A stretch of DNA of 64,000 bases from Comamonadaceae bacterium (GTDB lineage: Bacteria; Pseudomonadota; Gammaproteobacteria; Burkholderiales; Burkholderiaceae_C). The stretch covers positions 62,001 to 126,000 of the forward strand of contig CANFCG010000001.1 in assembly GCA_947445115.1 (NCBI GenBank), read 5' to 3'. The stretch's first letter is position 1. Each line of letters opens with the position of its first letter. Shown here piece after piece: positions 2 through 8,892 of the stretch. The position numbers were made by a program, and so were the translations under genes. Below the pieces are notes generated by a model. That model saw only the letters and a list, made by a program, of their open reading frames with translations, was not told the DNA's origin and made no database searches.

Positions 2-535
2 GCGGGTGCGCCTGTCATGCCTACGCCCATGCAAGCGCCGTGGTTAGAAGCCGCTGGCGCGTGCTTTGTCACGCTATCCAAAAATGGACAACTGCGCGGC
101 TGTATCGGTAGTTTGATGGCGCATCGCTCTATCAAAGACGATGTGATTCACAACGCACAGGCCGCGGCGCTGCATGACCACCGCTTTGCGCCCGTCACGG
201 CAAATGAAGCACCCGAGCTGATGATTGAAGTCTCTGTTCTCACAAGCCCCGTCCCTCTTGGCTTTGCGAATGAGGCGCATGCGCTGTGGCAGCTCCAACC
301 GCTCAAGGACGGTGTGATTTTTTCTGCCGAAGTGAACGGGCAACCCTACCGCAGCACCTTCTTGCCGCAGGTGTGGGGACAGATGGCGGACGCGCAGCAG
401 TTCATGGCGCAGCTCAAAATGAAGGCGGGACTACCCGCTGATTTTTGGTCGGATGCAGTGCAGTTGCAAACCTACCGTGTGCAAGAATTTCATGAGCAAT
501 CTGTCATTCCCGCGGAGGCGGGAATCCATGGATAG
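2..535 (+). CDS. amrA: AMMECR1-domain protein (AmmeMemoRadiSam system protein A), 5' end outside window
   Basis: The reading frame is open to the left edge, so the true start lies upstream and the ATG at 17 is probably internal. The visible part has the AMMECR1 core: FVTLSKNGQLRGCIGSL near the N-terminus, then HDHRFAPV and the ISVLTSP-type segment (here IEVSVLTSP). The family has no established biochemical role; it is conserved beside a Memo-like protein and a radical SAM enzyme (the AmmeMemoRadiSam set), and the radical SAM gene follows directly. The normal domain end (TYRVQEF) is followed by about a dozen residues, EQSVIPAEAGIHG, encoded by a palindromic repeat at 503-527, so the C-terminus has been rebuilt by the repeat. 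The stop at 533-535 overlaps the start of the next gene. Confidence 0.88.
   Translation, partial: AGAPVMPTPMQAPWLEAAGACFVTLSKNGQLRGCIGSLMAHRSIKDDVIHNAQAAALHDHRFAPVTANEAPELMIEVSVLTSPVPLGFANEAHALWQLQPLKDGVIFSAEVNGQPYRSTFLPQVWGQMADAQQFMAQLKMKAGLPADFWSDAVQLQTYRVQEFHEQSVIPAEAGIHG
503..527. repeat. Palindromic repeat, copy 1
   Basis: One copy of the dispersed palindrome whose core is ATTCCCGCCTTCGCGGGAAT, here in the inverse orientation and with one arm changed so that it reads GGAGG at 514-518. It encodes the last residues of the AMMECR1 protein and lies immediately before the ATG at 528 of the radical SAM gene, to which the altered GGAGG gives a Shine-Dalgarno sequence at 9-nt spacing. Confidence 0.85.
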
Positions 536-2042: not shown

Positions 2043-2050
2043 TGGACTAT

Positions 2051-2075
2051 GGATTCCCGCCTTCGCGGGAATGAC
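2051..2075. repeat. Palindromic repeat, copy 2
   Basis: Perfect-looking copy of the ATTCCCGCCTTCGCGGGAAT palindrome with flanking GG and GAC. It lies in the 41-bp gap between the FKBP gene and the PaiB-like gene, where its hairpin could act on mRNA stability or termination. There is no U-run after it, so a rho-independent terminator is not indicated. Confidence 0.88.
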
Positions 2076-2083
2076 GGGGACCT

Positions 2084-2701: not shown

Positions 2702-3432
2702 CCCAAGTTTTTGTGGATAAACGCCAAGCGTTTTGGAGTGGTTTTAAGCACGCGTTAGGCGCACCCATGATGGTATTATTTGCCGGCATGATTGGCTTTG
2801 GCGCTATGGGGCACACCCATGGCATCAATGCTTGGTTCACGGGGCTTACGAGCCTGCTAATGTTTGCATTGCCTGGGCAAGTGGTGCTGCTTGAGATGGT
2901 GATCTCAGGCTCGTCATTCTTGGCCATTGCGCTTGCGGTGACTCTAACCTCGGCGCGTTTCATCACGATGACGATTACGCTGTTTCCGCAACTTGCAAAA
3001 GAGGATTACAACAACAAACTCTATGCTTATGTGCACCTGCTCGCCATGACCGCGTGGGCGGTGTCGATGCGCGAGTTCCCCAAGATCGAGCCTAAATATC
3101 GACTTAGCTATTTTTTAGGGCTTGGTTTGCCTTGCTGGCTCATCGCAATGCCAGGGACGGTGCTGGGTTATTTTTTGGCAGGCATGGTTCCTAATGCTGT
3201 CACGCTAGCGTTGGTGTTTATCAACCCGCTGTTTTTTTTGCTCACGTTTACCGAGGTGAAGCCTTGGGGCAATCGCTTGGCGATTGGGCTTGGCTGCGTT
3301 TTGGGGCCACTTTTCTTTTTGCTGGATAAAGATAGCAGCCTCTTGGCGACTGGGCTTTTTGCAGGAACCTTGGCTTATGTGATTGAACGCCAGTTTTTAC
3401 GCCATCGCACGATTGAGGGGGTAAAGTCATGA
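2698..3432 (+). CDS. azlC: AzlC family branched-chain amino acid permease, large subunit
   Basis: The protein is 244 residues from the ATG at 2698 and hydrophobic throughout, with several membrane segments (for example MMVLFAGMIGFGAMG and LLMFALPGQVVLLEMVISGSSFLAIALAVTLTSARFITMT). The GLTSLLMFALPGQ and TSARFITMT signatures fit AzlC, the larger partner of a two-component exporter for branched-chain amino acids and analogues in the inner membrane. The frame extends upstream to 2575, but the 2698 ATG gives the usual family length and a 4-bp overlap with paiB. It overlaps azlD by 4 bp (3429-3432). Confidence 0.92.
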   Translation: MTQVFVDKRQAFWSGFKHALGAPMMVLFAGMIGFGAMGHTHGINAWFTGLTSLLMFALPGQVVLLEMVISGSSFLAIALAVTLTSARFITMTITLFPQLAKEDYNNKLYAYVHLLAMTAWAVSMREFPKIEPKYRLSYFLGLGLPCWLIAMPGTVLGYFLAGMVPNAVTLALVFINPLFFLLTFTEVKPWGNRLAIGLGCVLGPLFFLLDKDSSLLATGLFAGTLAYVIERQFLRHRTIEGVKS

Positions 3433-3770
3433 CAAGCACCAATCTGGAAATGGGACTGTGGATCGCACTCATTGCTGCCTGCGTGGGCACCTATATTTGC
3501 CGCGCCCTTGGCGTTAAATTGGCGGGTCATATCGACCAAGAGAGTGAAATTTTTAGATGGCTTTCTGCTGTGACCTACGCCATGGTTGCAGCGCTCACGA
3601 TTCGTTTAATTGCGATGCCAACAGGATTACTGGCAACCGTGCCGTTGCTAGTTCGCTTATTTGTTTGCGTTTTGAGTGTTGCGGTGATGGTGTCCAGCCC
3701 TACCAAGCGGCTAGTGCCTGCTTTACTAACAGGTACGGCGCTGCTGCTGGCTTACGGCGTGTTTACCTAA
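3429..3770 (+). CDS. azlD: AzlD family branched-chain amino acid transporter, small subunit
   Basis: The 113-residue inner-membrane protein has about three to four hydrophobic segments (LWIALIAACVGTYICRALGV, VTYAMVAALTIRLIAM, LLVRLFVCVLSVAVMV, ALLTGTALLLAYGVF). Size, the Arg after the first segment and the ATGA overlap with azlC identify it as AzlD. AzlC and AzlD together export branched-chain amino acids; the window also holds much of the pathway that makes them (ilvBNC and leuA), though far away. Confidence 0.9.
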   Translation: MTSTNLEMGLWIALIAACVGTYICRALGVKLAGHIDQESEIFRWLSAVTYAMVAALTIRLIAMPTGLLATVPLLVRLFVCVLSVAVMVSSPTKRLVPALLTGTALLLAYGVFT

Positions 3771-3778
3771 TTGACATG

Positions 3779-3802
3779 AACTCCCGCCTGCGCGGGAATG
3801 AT
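3779..3802. repeat. Palindromic repeat, copy 3 (variant)
   Basis: A slightly shortened copy (CTCCCGCCTGCGCGGGAAT) in the 37-bp gap between the convergent azlD and Bug-receptor genes. Its position between two 3' ends would suit a bidirectional hairpin for transcript ends, but no U-run is seen. Confidence 0.75.
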
Positions 3803-3807
3803 GGACT

Positions 3808-4782
3808 CTAGCTGTCCGCTCTCACATTCGCGGCCTTCGCCACCACCGCCCATTTTTGTTGCTCAGACTTGATGAAGTTTGCAAACTTCTCAATGCTGCC
3901 ACCACCGTCTTCAGCGCCATAAAAATCCATACGCTCTTGCACATCTGGCATGGCGAGCACTTTGTTCACGTCATCATTCATACGCTGCTGGATGGCACTT
4001 GGCATCTTGCTGGGGCCCATGAGTCCATACCAAACGGTGGCCTCAAAGCCTTTGTAGCCCGACTCATCCATGGTGGGTACATGCGCTTGGCTCTTGGCTC
4101 GCTTGAGGCGGGTCTGCGCAATCGCAATCGCCTTGCCACTCTTGACGTGGGGCGCAGCCGAAGTCATGGTCTCAAAGCAATAGTTGACCTGCCCACCAAT
4201 CAAATCGACCAAAGCGGGGGCTGAACCTCGGTACGGCACATGAAGCGCAAAAATATTGGCTTGCAGCTTAAACATTTCCAGCGCAAAGTGCTGCGCCGAC
4301 CCGCCCCCTGCTGATGCAAAACTGAGTTGGCCGGGTTTGGCTTTTGCCAACGCCACAATATCTTTCACTGTTTTGGCCGGTTGATCAACGTTGCAAATCA
4401 AAAGATTCGGCGTAATACCTACCATGCTGATGGGTGCGAAATCTTTGACTGCGTCGTAATTCAATTTTTGCCCCATCGCGGGTGCAAGTGCATGGCTGTT
4501 GATGTGCCCCATCAGGAGCGTATTACCGTCCCCGGCCTGCTTGCTTACGTAATCCGCAGCAATCACGCCCGCAGCACCTGCTTTGTTTTCGACTACAACC
4601 GACGTGCCCCACAAAACTTGCAGCTTTTGCCCCACCACACGGGCCAGCGCATCGGTACCTCCGCCAGGCGGAAAGCCCACAATGATGCGCACAGGGCCAG
4701 CCGGCAAGGTCTGCGCTGGCACCCAAATATGCGGAAAAGCTAAACCCGTAGCTGCGGTTTGAATGAGTGTTCGGCGTTGCAT
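3808..4782 (-). CDS. Bug/TctC family tripartite tricarboxylate transporter substrate-binding protein
   Basis: The 324-residue protein starts MQRRTLIQ, has a short signal peptide (cleavage near VPAQ), and then the Bug family opening PVRIIVGFPPGGGTDALARVVGQKL. Other family marks are VVENKAGAAGVIAADYV, ISMVGITPNLLICN and the LRFASAGGGSAQH-like loop. These periplasmic receptors bind small carboxylates or related solutes; the ligand cannot be read from sequence. The ATG at 4782 has AGGAG six bases upstream on its strand. No TctA/TctB membrane genes lie nearby, so it is an orphan receptor, as is common in Burkholderiales. Confidence 0.92.
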   Translation of the reverse strand: MQRRTLIQTAATGLAFPHIWVPAQTLPAGPVRIIVGFPPGGGTDALARVVGQKLQVLWGTSVVVENKAGAAGVIAADYVSKQAGDGNTLLMGHINSHALAPAMGQKLNYDAVKDFAPISMVGITPNLLICNVDQPAKTVKDIVALAKAKPGQLSFASAGGGSAQHFALEMFKLQANIFALHVPYRGSAPALVDLIGGQVNYCFETMTSAAPHVKSGKAIAIAQTRLKRAKSQAHVPTMDESGYKGFEATVWYGLMGPSKMPSAIQQRMNDDVNKVLAMPDVQERMDFYGAEDGGGSIEKFANFIKSEQQKWAVVAKAANVRADS

Positions 4783-4818
4783 CAAGACTCCTAAAAGATA
4801 CTTGATGCTAGCCGAAGA

Positions 4819-7800
4819 TTAAGCTACCCAGCGCCTTGCGTTACGCCAAAGTTCCATCCACGGGCTGTAGGCATCCAAGCCGCCTGTGCTGCTTAAATCC
4901 GTCCAGCTCATTTGTACATTTCTAAACACGCGCTCAGGGTGCGGCATCATGGCGGTGAAGCGTCCGTCCGCCGTGGTGACAGCCGTCAAGCCGCCTGCGC
5001 TACCGTTGGGATTAGCTGGGTATTGCTCGGTCGGTTGTCCGTTGCTATCCACAAATCGCATGGACGGAATCACGAGCCCAGCATCGCCACGATGCGCAAA
5101 GTTAGCATAGCCCTCGCCGTGTGCAACAGCAATAGGCATATGGCTTCCCGCCATTCCGTTCAAAAACAAACTGGGGGATTCCAAGATTTCGACTTGCGAA
5201 AGGCGCGCTTCAAAGCGCCCGCTTTGGTTGTGCGTAAAGCGCGGCCAAGCATTAGCGCCTGGGATGATGTCGGCCAGCTCGGCAAACATTTGGCAACCAT
5301 TGCACACGCCAAGGCCAAAGGTGTTGCCGCGTGCAAAGAACGCTTCAAACTGATCACGCAGCTTGGCGTTAAAGGTGATGCTACGCGCCCAGCCCACGCC
5401 AGCGCCCAGAGTGTCGCCGTAGCTAAATCCGCCGCAAGCGACCATGCCGATGAAGTCATCCAGCTTGTAGCGACCTGTTTGCAGGTCGGTCATGTGGACA
5501 TCGACGGCGTCAAAACCTGCCACGCGAAAGGCTTCCGCCATCTCGATGTGCGAATTCACGCCTTGCTCGCGCAGCACGGCTACGCGAGGTTTCGTCAAAC
5601 TAAAAGCCACGTCACTCCCGCGAAGGCGGGAATCCACATGAGCGCTCGTGGATTCCTGCCTTCGCGGGAATGACGACTCTGGTAGATAGACGTGCAAGCC
5701 TTTATCAGCAAGGCTTCCAGCCAAGGCATGCTCAGAATCTGCACAAACTGGGTTATCACGTACTTTGGCAATCTTCCAACTTACGGCATCCCAAACTTGG
5801 AAAAGATCCGCCACATTGGCGCTAAAAATTTTCTTGGTATCACGCCAGATTTGCAGCTCTCCTTTGCCCTCAGCAAGCGCCGCCGACTCAGGGCGAGTCT
5901 TGCCGATATAGTGACTCATACTGGACAAACCATGCGCACGTAGGGCTTGCATCACCGCAGCACGATCTGCCGTTTTAACTTGAAGTATGACTCCTAACTC
6001 TTCGTTAAATAATGATTTAATAGTTAACTCTTCACGCCTTCCATTAACTTGACTTGACCAGTTTTTAGCATCGCCTACGTCCGCACGGCTATCCGTAATG
6101 CCATCACCCTCGGTCACCAGCATGTCGATATTGAGGGCCACGCCCACGTGTCCAGCAAATGTCATCTCGGCTACAGCGGCGAGTAAACCGCCATCGCTGC
6201 GGTCGTGGTAGGCGAGGATTTTCCCCTCGCTTCGCAATTGATTGACCGCTTTGACCAGATTCACTAAATCTTCAGGGTTGTCTAAATCAGGCACTTGGTC
6301 GCCTACGGCATTCAGGGTCTGCGCTAAAACAGACGCTGCCATTCGCGCTTTGCCTCGGCCTAAGTCGATGAGGAGCAGCGATGTATCCGATTCCGTGGCA
6401 TCCAATTGCGGCGTCAGCGTGCAGCGCACGTCGGCAAGTGTGGCAAAAGCAGTCACGATCAGCGAGACAGGCGACACAACTTGTGAGCCGTCAGCAGCCT
6501 TGGAGCGCATCGAGAGCGAATCTTTGCCCACAGGAATGGAAATGCCCAGTGCGGGGCACAGATCCATGCCCACGGCTTTGACCGTTGCGTATAGCGCTGC
6601 GTCTTCGCCCTCATCCTTGTCACCCGTGCCGCAAGCCGCCATCCAATTGGCGGACAGCTTGACGCGAGACAGCTCAATCGGTGCTGCCAGCAAATTGGTA
6701 ATCGCTTCGCCCACTGCCATGCGGCCTGACGCAGGCGCGTCCATTATCGCCAACGGCGTGCGTTCGCCCATCGCCATGGCTTCGCCTGCAAAGCCTGTGT
6801 AATCTGCCAGCGTGACAGCGCAGTCCGCCACGGGGACTTGCCAAGGCCCAACCATTTGGTCGCGATGAGTCAGCCCGCCCACCGTGCGGTCGCCAATGGT
6901 GATGAGGAATCGCTTGCTTGCCACCGTGGGATGCGACAGCACATTGATGACGGCATCTTGCAGTTTCACGTCGGTCAGGTTGAGCGGCGCAAATTCACGC
7001 TTCACGGCTTTCACATCACGCGTCATTTTGGGCGGTTTGCCCAGTAACACGTTCATAGGCATATCAACGGCGGTAGTCTTGTCGTTCTTCAAAGACAAAT
7101 TTCGCGCTTCTGTCGTTACGCCCACCACAGCAAACGGGCAACGCTCGCGCTCGCAAATCGCTTTAAATTGTTCGAGCGACTCAGGTGCAATTGCTAGAAC
7201 ATAGCGCTCTTGGCTCTCGTTGCACCACATCTCTTTGGGCGACAGACCCGATTCCTCTAACGGGATAGCAGATAAATCAAACCGCGCACCACGAGCCGCA
7301 TCATTAACCAGCTCGGGAAACGCGTTGGAAAGTCCACCTGCGCCCACATCGTGAATCGCCAAAATTGGATTCAGCGCGGCATCTTTCGATCCAAGAGCCG
7401 CACAAGCCGTAATCACCTCTTGCGCACGACGCTCGATCTCGGGGTTGGCACGCTGCACAGAATCAAAATCCAGCTCAGCCGAATTGGCACCGCCCGCCAT
7501 CGAACTCGCCGCGCTACCACCCATGCCGATGCGCATACCTGGCCCGCCCAATTGAATGAGCAGCGAGCCCGCAGGAAACAAAATCTTGTGCGTTAGCTTG
7601 GCATCAATCGATCCCAGACCGCCCGCAATCATGATCGGTTTGTGATAACCGTAGTGGCGTGTTTCACCCGCCGTGTCGGTCACCGTTTGCTCAAAAGCGC
7701 GGAAATAGCCTGCAAGGTTTGGACGACCAAATTCGTTGTTAAAAGCTGCACCGCCAAGCGGGCCTTGCGTCATGATCTCCAAAGCCGTAGCAAACAATTG

Positions 7801-8892
7801 GGGGCTGACCCCCTTATTTAAAGAATCAGCAAGCGAAGCGACTTTGGGGCCTGTCCCCAATTGGCTTGCGGGCAGCCCCAATGACGACACCGTAAATCCC
7901 GTCACGCCAGCCTTAGGCTTAGACCCCCTGCCCGTTGCGCCCTCATCCCGAATCTCACCGCCCGCGCCCGTGGCCGCGCCCTGCCAAGGCGCAATGGCCG
8001 TCGGATGGTTGTGCGTTTCCACTTTCATGATGACGTGGCGACGGATAACGCCGTCCGCGTCAGGAGCGCCTTCCATGATGGAAGAGTTGTCCGAATAAGC
8101 TACGACGGTGTGCTGCGGCGACAACGCCTCGGTATTACGAATCATGGCGAAGAGCGATTTGTCTTGCTCTGCGCCATCAATGATGAACTTAGCGTTAAAA
8201 ATCTTGTGGCGGCAGTGCTCAGAGTTGGCCTGCGCAAACATCATCAGCTCCACATCGGTGGGGTTACGTTCTAGCTTGGTAAAGGCTTCCAGCAGATAGT
8301 CCATCTCGTCGCTAGACAGCGCCAAACCCATGCGGGTATTCACCTCTAGCAAGGATGCTAAGCCAGCGCCCAGTATGTCGATGCGCTCCATCGCAACAGA
8401 TGGCAGTACATCGAACAAGCTGCTCACGCCAGCGCGATCAAAGAAAACCGACTCCGTCATGCGGTCATGCAAAAGCGCCGAAACTTCTTGCAAAGCCTTA
8501 TCAGTTAAGGGCTTGGAAGCGCTGATGTGAAATTCGGTGACGCGCTCCACGCGCTGCAAGTTGCTGGAGGCAATCCCGCAATTGCGAGCAATATCCGTGG
8601 CTTTAGACGACCAAGAAGATATCGTACCCCGGCGAGGAGCAATCAGTATGGCTTGCGAAGCAGGCTGCCCGCTAGTCCTTACACCATATGGTTCGCCATA
8701 GGTCAAAAGTGCTTTTAGCTGTGATTCGGTCTCAGCATCGGGCAAGGCAGACAAAGCAACCCAATGCACAAAACCAGCGGTTATGCTTTGGATAGAGGGC
8801 TGAATAGCTTGAAGTTTGGAAAGCAGTGCGAACTGCTGCGCGGTGGTGAGTGCTTGGATCTGGGTGTCCAAGCAGAGGATGTGAGATGCCAC
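4819..8892 (-). CDS. purL: Phosphoribosylformylglycinamidine synthase PurL, with two in-frame repeat-derived insertions
   Basis: The 1357-residue single-chain PurL converts FGAR, glutamine and ATP to FGAM in purine synthesis. The synthetase half shows [51 protein letters not shown] and [11 protein letters not shown]. The C-terminal glutaminase half has [12 protein letters not shown], catalytic Cys in VCNGCQMF (near residue 1197) and [10 protein letters not shown] (near 1318). Start is a GTG with AAAGGG upstream. Two stretches are foreign to the family: residues about 344-366, from QLGTGPK to GVSPQL, encoded by paired GGGG/CCCC palindromes, and residues about 1073-1095, encoded by two inverted copies of the ATTCCC palindrome just before the glutaminase domain. 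Neither breaks the frame and all catalytic motifs remain, so the enzyme is probably active. Confidence 0.97.
5611..5674. repeat. Paired inverted palindromic repeats (copies 4 and 5) inside purL
   Basis: Two copies of the ATTCCC palindrome face each other: 5611-5637 and 5648-5674 are reverse complements over 27 bp with two mismatches, separated by 10 bp. The whole unit could fold into one long hairpin or two small ones. It is translated as part of PurL (SSFPRRQES...DSRLRGSDV). It resembles a small mobile inverted-repeat unit made of two single copies. Confidence 0.88.
7797..7863. repeat. Second palindrome family: paired GGGG-N-CCCC repeats inside purL
   Basis: Two short palindromes bracket about 30 bp: GGGGG-CTGA-CCCCC at 7800-7813 and TTGGGG-CCTGT-CCCCAA at 7844-7860. 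Their outer ends are inverted with respect to each other (CAATTGGGG at one end, CCCCAATTG at the other). The unit is translated in frame and occupies the loop where other PurL proteins carry an unrelated segment before the [17 protein letters not shown] motif. Confidence 0.7.

Follow-up and report, generated by a model that had tools for sequence, protein, structure and literature searches.

Palindromic repeats translated in frame within bacterial genes have already been described, both for REPs (Di Nocera, De Gregorio and Rocco 2013, PMC3733652) and for the Rickettsia palindromic elements (RPEs). The REP family that concerns us here, CGTC-1, is defined in PMC3733652 by a CGTC or TGTC tag, an 8-bp stem, a 4-base loop and a CCA tail; head-head arrangements are said there to prevail among its dimers, and the family is presented as having no dedicated transposase. 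As portrayed in that source, REPs in general sit mostly outside genes, CGTC-1 is mainly intergenic and in part intragenic, its intragenic dimers or groups encode 20-30 aa, and the alpha-Proteobacteria house most CGTC repeats. The same paper places both Neisseria dRS3 and Rickettsia RPE-6 in CGTC-1. RPEs are palindromic repeats translated in frame within conserved genes, are Rickettsia-specific and are given as 105-146 bp or about 150 bp in length (PMC2229807, PMC10969869); a Rickettsia guanylate kinase with such an insert is reported to be translated and active, with a changed substrate affinity (PMC2229807).

The window analysed here, a stretch of 64,000 nucleotides from a Comamonadaceae bacterium, contains purL (phosphoribosylformylglycinamidine synthase; 4819-8892, minus strand), which the ORF listing gives as a single open frame of 1357 aa. 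Profile searches match its product with both full-length models, NF003672 and TIGR01735, and place the glutaminase domain, GATase_5, at 4825-5592 (minus strand; residues 1101-1356). Five residues ahead of residue 1101 ends a 66-bp head-head dimer of CGTC-1 REPs (5610-5675, minus strand) that touches codons 1073-1095. The first unit (5610-5636, plus strand) consists of a CGTC tag, an 8-bp stem with one mismatch, a GAAG loop and a CCA tail; the second (5649-5675, minus strand) is inverted and also has one mismatch; and the 12 nt between the two CCA tails (5637-5648, no strand) leave the palindrome cores 18 nt apart. The CGTC tags thus form both outer ends of the dimer and the unpaired CCA tail is present in both units, whereas the GTAG tag of the RAYT-associated GTAG REPs is absent from it. 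The stem-loop consensus is ATTCCCGC-GAAG-GCGGGAAT. By its tag, stem, loop, tail and dispersed copies we assign the PurL dimer to the published CGTC-1 family, with whose description in PMC3733652 it also shares the head-head arrangement; the differences from that account are the host (Comamonadaceae), the gene (purL) and the unrelated REP families found in the linker of relatives. It resembles the RPEs as an in-frame translated palindrome, and RPE-6 as a fellow CGTC-1 member in the scheme of PMC3733652, but it is only 66 bp long and its nearest named records come from Comamonadaceae, not Rickettsia; with Neisseria dRS3 it shares the CGTC-1 assignment made in PMC3733652, where dRS3 is said to differ in lying mostly in large clusters.

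A sequence-only reading of this DNA had proposed two inverted copies of a palindrome forming an in-frame insertion of about 22 residues with both flanking domains kept. The two inverted copies are there (arms 5593-5637 and 5648-5692; units 5611-5636 and 5649-5674), the frame is open, and the full-length models and GATase_5 are matched; the length had been put at 64 bp, one base short at each end of the 66 bp that the full CGTC tags span. Because 66 is a multiple of three, the dimer contributes 22 codons' worth of sequence, or about 22 residues. On the gene strand two of its three frames are open, and purL reads one of these two. As far as its sequence tells, the window PurL is complete apart from the insert, with its frame open and its domains present.

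The palindrome had also been taken to be genome-wide, and this is borne out. Within the window the core, allowing up to three mismatches, has 7 matches against 0.32 expected, a number reached in 0 of 100 shuffles, and in the whole genome (G000) there are 76 exact copies (reversed control, 0) and 135 with up to two mismatches (control, 2). An own-genome sample of 1,250,527 of 2,336,798 bases yielded 96 cores with up to three mismatches, of which 69 have no more than one. The consensus of these 69 near-exact copies is YYGTC-ATTCCCGCGAAGGCGGGAAT-CCA: tag positions -3, -2 and -1 are G in 65, T in 67 and C in 66 of them, position -4 is C or T in 59, and the tail bases C, C and A occur in 62, 56 and 66. 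The sample cores fall into 80 single ones and 8 pairs, and among the pairs, whose orientation was read by eye, five have their tags outside (head-head) and three have them inside with wider spacing; the 18-nt core spacing, and with it the total of 66 bp, recurs in three of the five head-head pairs (PurL, PriA and one further). Fourteen of the 69 near-exact units are enclosed by an ORF of 110 aa or more that leaves 20 codons to each side of them, but only eight are, in our judgement, clearly internal to real genes as recognised by Pfam (PurL and PriA with two each; CorC/CNNM, GT41-TPR, TsaD and EamA with one each), so that near-exact copies are mainly extragenic. The other six comprise four in ORFs that had no Pfam match or were unscanned (the scan covered all but the 120-aa ORF at C13:13310-13672) and two close to an ORF start; six in-gene matches with three mismatches were counted as chance. 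Single CGTC-1 REPs in the window include one between ORFs 1617-2042 and 2084-2701 (2050-2076, minus strand), one between the convergent ORFs 3429-3770 and 3808-4785 (3777-3803, minus strand) and one at the 3' end of ORF 17-535 (503-528, plus strand), where it encodes the last residues of that ORF (..SVIPAEAGIHG) and lies in its overlap with ORF 453-1607, which is read in another frame.

The unit is absent from the PurL linker of all four same-genus relatives examined (G001-G004), which have other sequence there; the possibility, raised with the original observation, that all relatives carry it therefore does not hold. The G003 linker contains, with one mismatch, a repeat of the GTTCGGGC..GTCGAAG family, which has 64 forward and 57 reverse matches in G003 as against 3 and 2 in G000, and the G002 linker contains a different palindrome. 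To the eye, the G001 and G004 linkers (L008 and L007) had suggested worn GTTCGGGC units, an identification dropped on finding more than five mismatches to every pattern tested. It could be argued that the dimer is ancestral PurL sequence with a mere look of a repeat, given that the linker varies widely in length anyway (52-96 residues over the compared stretch), but its absence from G001-G004 contradicts this and each unit lies one mismatch from the core of dozens of dispersed copies, which leaves the idea with next to no chance of being right. It is also extremely unlikely that we are looking at an assembly artefact or a decaying pseudogene: the assembly is in 59 contigs and repeats may be misjoined, but the two arms are identical neither to each other nor to the family consensus (28 of 33 positions agree), the frame is open with its domains present, and the sister genomes carry other sequence at this place, in part other repeats.

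The reading that we favour, with a probability of roughly 0.87, is that a resident CGTC-1 dimer inserted in frame and has been tolerated in a permissive linker. The 66-bp head-head dimer would have entered purL in this lineage after its split from the same-genus relatives, probably as one unit, although at a linker so variable between species a simple insertion is indistinguishable from replacement or gene conversion. Its survival would be owed to its length of 22 codons with two of three gene-strand frames open, and to its placement in a variable-length linker ahead of the glutaminase domain. REPs would spread often, with selection leaving in-gene copies only at permissive places, and the insert is, in all likelihood, neutral or close to neutral. 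The linker is presumably exposed; an AlphaFold2 model of residues 930-1357, built from 24 aligned sequences, is poor, and at a mean pLDDT of 53 it proves nothing on this point. Tolerance at a domain linker, as had been suggested, fits these data.

What makes the linker appear permissive is that resident REPs of unrelated families have landed there in other Comamonadaceae. From 153 PurL loci (L005-L137 and L168-L187) we obtained 152 linkers, L183 giving none, of which 143 are distinct, and 16 of these 143, from related genomes, carry a REP of one of three families: CGTC-1 in three (L005, L011, L043), GTTCGGGC in five (L006, L048, L070, L134, L168) and CCCTCTCCC in eight (L088, L093, L112, L117, L128, L174, L175, L184). 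Fifteen of the 16 match the full unit with at most two mismatches and L175 matches a half motif with none; among 715 codon shuffles none was positive at these thresholds, the closest differing from the three units at 7, 5 and 6 positions and from the half motif at 4. The loci are a biased sample, being the closest matches to the query, with 20 fetched for a longer-than-usual match; positives make up 12 of 125 distinct linkers in the first set and 4 of the 18 that the picked set added. Palindromes are also present in the linkers of L009, L021 and L127, which stand outside the copy-number searches. Three linkers (L112, L128, L175) have more than one CCCTCTCCC-type unit, which brings such linkers to as much as about 40 residues above the common length. 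Two of the insert-bearing genomes come from named isolates, Polaromonas sp. AER18D-145 and Caenimonas koreensis DSM 17982.

The families concerned are resident in the hosts searched. When the family found in the linker was searched for in 11 of the 16 host genomes (all but those of L043, L168, L174, L175 and L184), all 11 held further copies and nine held at least 15. CGTC-1 has 48 exact copies in G034, beside the 76 in G000. At up to two mismatches, GTTCGGGC has (forward/reverse) 64/57 matches in G003, 55/48 in G331, 102/93 in the L070 genome and 6/3 in the L134 genome, and CCCTCTCCC has 20, 66, 15, 30 and 5 in the genomes of L112, L128, L117, L088 and L093, with 0 in G000, G003, G034, G264 and G331; two of these 11 hosts have few copies of their own family (6 and 3 in G424, 5 in G429). 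Abundance alone does not decide which family lands, since G264 (L043) has 24/28 GTTCGGGC matches yet a CGTC-1 insert in PurL, and G003 has 39 exact copies of CGTC-1 yet a GTTCGGGC insert.

How many independent events this represents can be gauged from a quick tree of the 143 rows, made with the linker excluded. Family labels require 14 changes over all, or, counted singly, 3 for CGTC-1, 5 for GTTCGGGC and 7 for CCCTCTCCC. The strongly supported inner branches (24 of 138) alone force 2, 3 and 1 changes, respectively, and about 6 in total, the forced changes of each family being counted relative to rows from the remaining two groups. The CCCTCTCCC rows are somewhat clustered on the tree (12 of 500 shuffles are as low), and a single origin with losses may account for the CCCTCTCCC linkers, being compatible with the data. 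L005 (CGTC-1) and L006 (GTTCGGGC) fall together in a strongly supported clade with five rows, as do L011 and L043 (CGTC-1) with L048 (GTTCGGGC) in one with three, which places different families in the same linker within two genera; this is the firmest part of the recurrence.

The same families were located along the rest of the enzyme by scanning 81 PurL loci, 70 of them full-length, for four patterns with up to two mismatches. The three counted families occur at the linker in nine loci, at residue ~604-607 in two of these (L070 and L128) and at ~346 in L134, and a match to the fourth pattern, with two mismatches, lies near the start of the window PurL. Nine of 12 groups within about 25 of 1290 codons would have p = 8e-14 under random placement, a figure that presupposes independent groups, for which the tree gives only partial support, and that speaks against random survival without separating tolerance from targeting. 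The 70 aligned PurLs contain 25 extra segments of at least nine residues, seven at ~1079, 13 at ~604-607, two at ~346-349 and three elsewhere (125, 499 and 504), most of which have no recognised REP; the window's linker insert is missing from this list because columns present in at least 35% of rows were not counted. That the joint is a DNA target picked by transposition machinery, beyond any tolerance, would explain at least three repeat families at one place, but the families are unrelated and differ in sequence, position and flanking DNA, and the near-exact REPs of the own-genome sample lie mainly outside genes (8 of 69 clearly inside); we regard such targeting as very unlikely. For unrelated families at one place, tolerance is the simpler reading. 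PMC3733652 offers one case of near-same-site insertion, in recB of two Xanthomonas species.

A selected role for the insert deserves more attention, since the dimer is the strongest 66-nt hairpin window of purL (-51.2 kcal/mol, against -30.7 for the best window outside it and a mean of -17.8), so that an effect on expression is possible. The mRNA hairpin might slow ribosomes or, as an RNase III site, tune PurL; alternatively, the glutaminase domain might profit from a longer linker. In 16 of 143 linkers hairpin-forming repeats do occupy this joint; but 127 of the 143 distinct linkers have none of the three families, the same families also occur at two other PurL sites, and the inserted peptides vary in sequence and in the repeat frame that is read. 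We consider selection of the insert improbable. There is likewise only a slim chance that the joint serves as a landing pad where hairpins of unrelated families form a convergent device, for ribosome pausing during folding or for RNA processing, favoured by selection beyond tolerance.

A second palindrome pair lies in the window PurL (sequence CCAATTGGGGACAGGCCCC..; 7795-7863, minus strand; here site A) and belongs to a TTGGGG..CCCCAA family. It is present in G000, worn in G003 and missing from G001, and, from this comparison with relatives, is most likely the other PurL insertion mentioned in the sequence-only reading; the stretch at 5985-6060, another candidate for the second inserted repeat, is ancestral in relatives and was ruled out. 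The assertion of two independent repeat families in PurL holds, for the 7795-7863 family is that of the flanks of a RAYT-like gene and no likeness to CGTC-1 is seen in its sequence. There are 14 TTRGGG..CCCCAA palindromes with at most one mismatch in G000, and the palindrome flanks the genome's one Y1_Tnp match; in G003 and G004 it also adjoins that gene. In G000 (contig C14; L167 10183-10970) this lone RAYT-like gene lies between CCATTTAATTRGGG..CCCYAATTAAATGG palindromes, which are of the family of the 7795-7863 insert, and looks like a TIRYT element. The family accordingly resembles the TIRYT/TIRtron arrangement of PMC3733652, described there as carrying a GGGGWSAS motif, in flanking the sole detected RAYT-like gene. 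The CGTC-1 core was not found in the 1.5 kb read around the Y1_Tnp gene, whose flanks carry the TTAGGG/TTGGGG palindrome, and genus mates with only 1-3 exact CGTC-1 copies also have one Y1_Tnp match; tied to another repeat family and present in CGTC-1-poor genus mates, it does not readily suggest itself as the mover of CGTC-1.

What is new beyond the known in-frame REPs is the recurrence of unrelated families at one PurL linker. No paper on REPs in PurL was among the matches listed, which is weak evidence of novelty with subscription papers mostly outside the search, and the full name of the PurL enzyme has 0 occurrences in PMC3733652, its supplementary lists lying outside that search. The observations would add a conserved purine enzyme of Comamonadaceae to the known cases of translated REP inserts, and they amount to a clear natural experiment, with one enzyme marked at the same small set of permissive segments by mobile palindromes of unrelated families. 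Marks of this kind map the places at which extra residues (up to about 40 here) are tolerated in a conserved protein, and the differences between species make two questions testable: by what means CGTC REPs move, and whether the copies that are translated are of any consequence.

In PriA (L223 10880-13159) a CGTC-1 dimer lies between the 3'-DNA-binding and DEAD domains, and G003 has a worn, partial version of it, so that the PriA insert looks older than that of PurL. The units in CorC and TsaD are absent from the relatives compared, whose flanks have diverged so far that no target duplication can be read from them. Among the records used, L060 and L069 are titled Cytophagales and Pantoea, yet their PurLs are 82% and 66% identical to the Comamonadaceae query, and L060 and G003:C26, from the window's genus, are one and the same contig. 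Either mistaken titles or misbinning of the contigs seems to lie behind this. A loop in TsaD contains CGTC-1 in G000 and GTTCGGGC in G003 (L232 and L233, at the same place), but it was rejected as a family-wide landing site like that of PurL, as these are the only two genomes with an insert among 34 loci. After the GTTCGGGC REP in the G003 TsaD comes a segment that codes for AVLAQTEE-like residues and is repeated, nearly in tandem, about five times.
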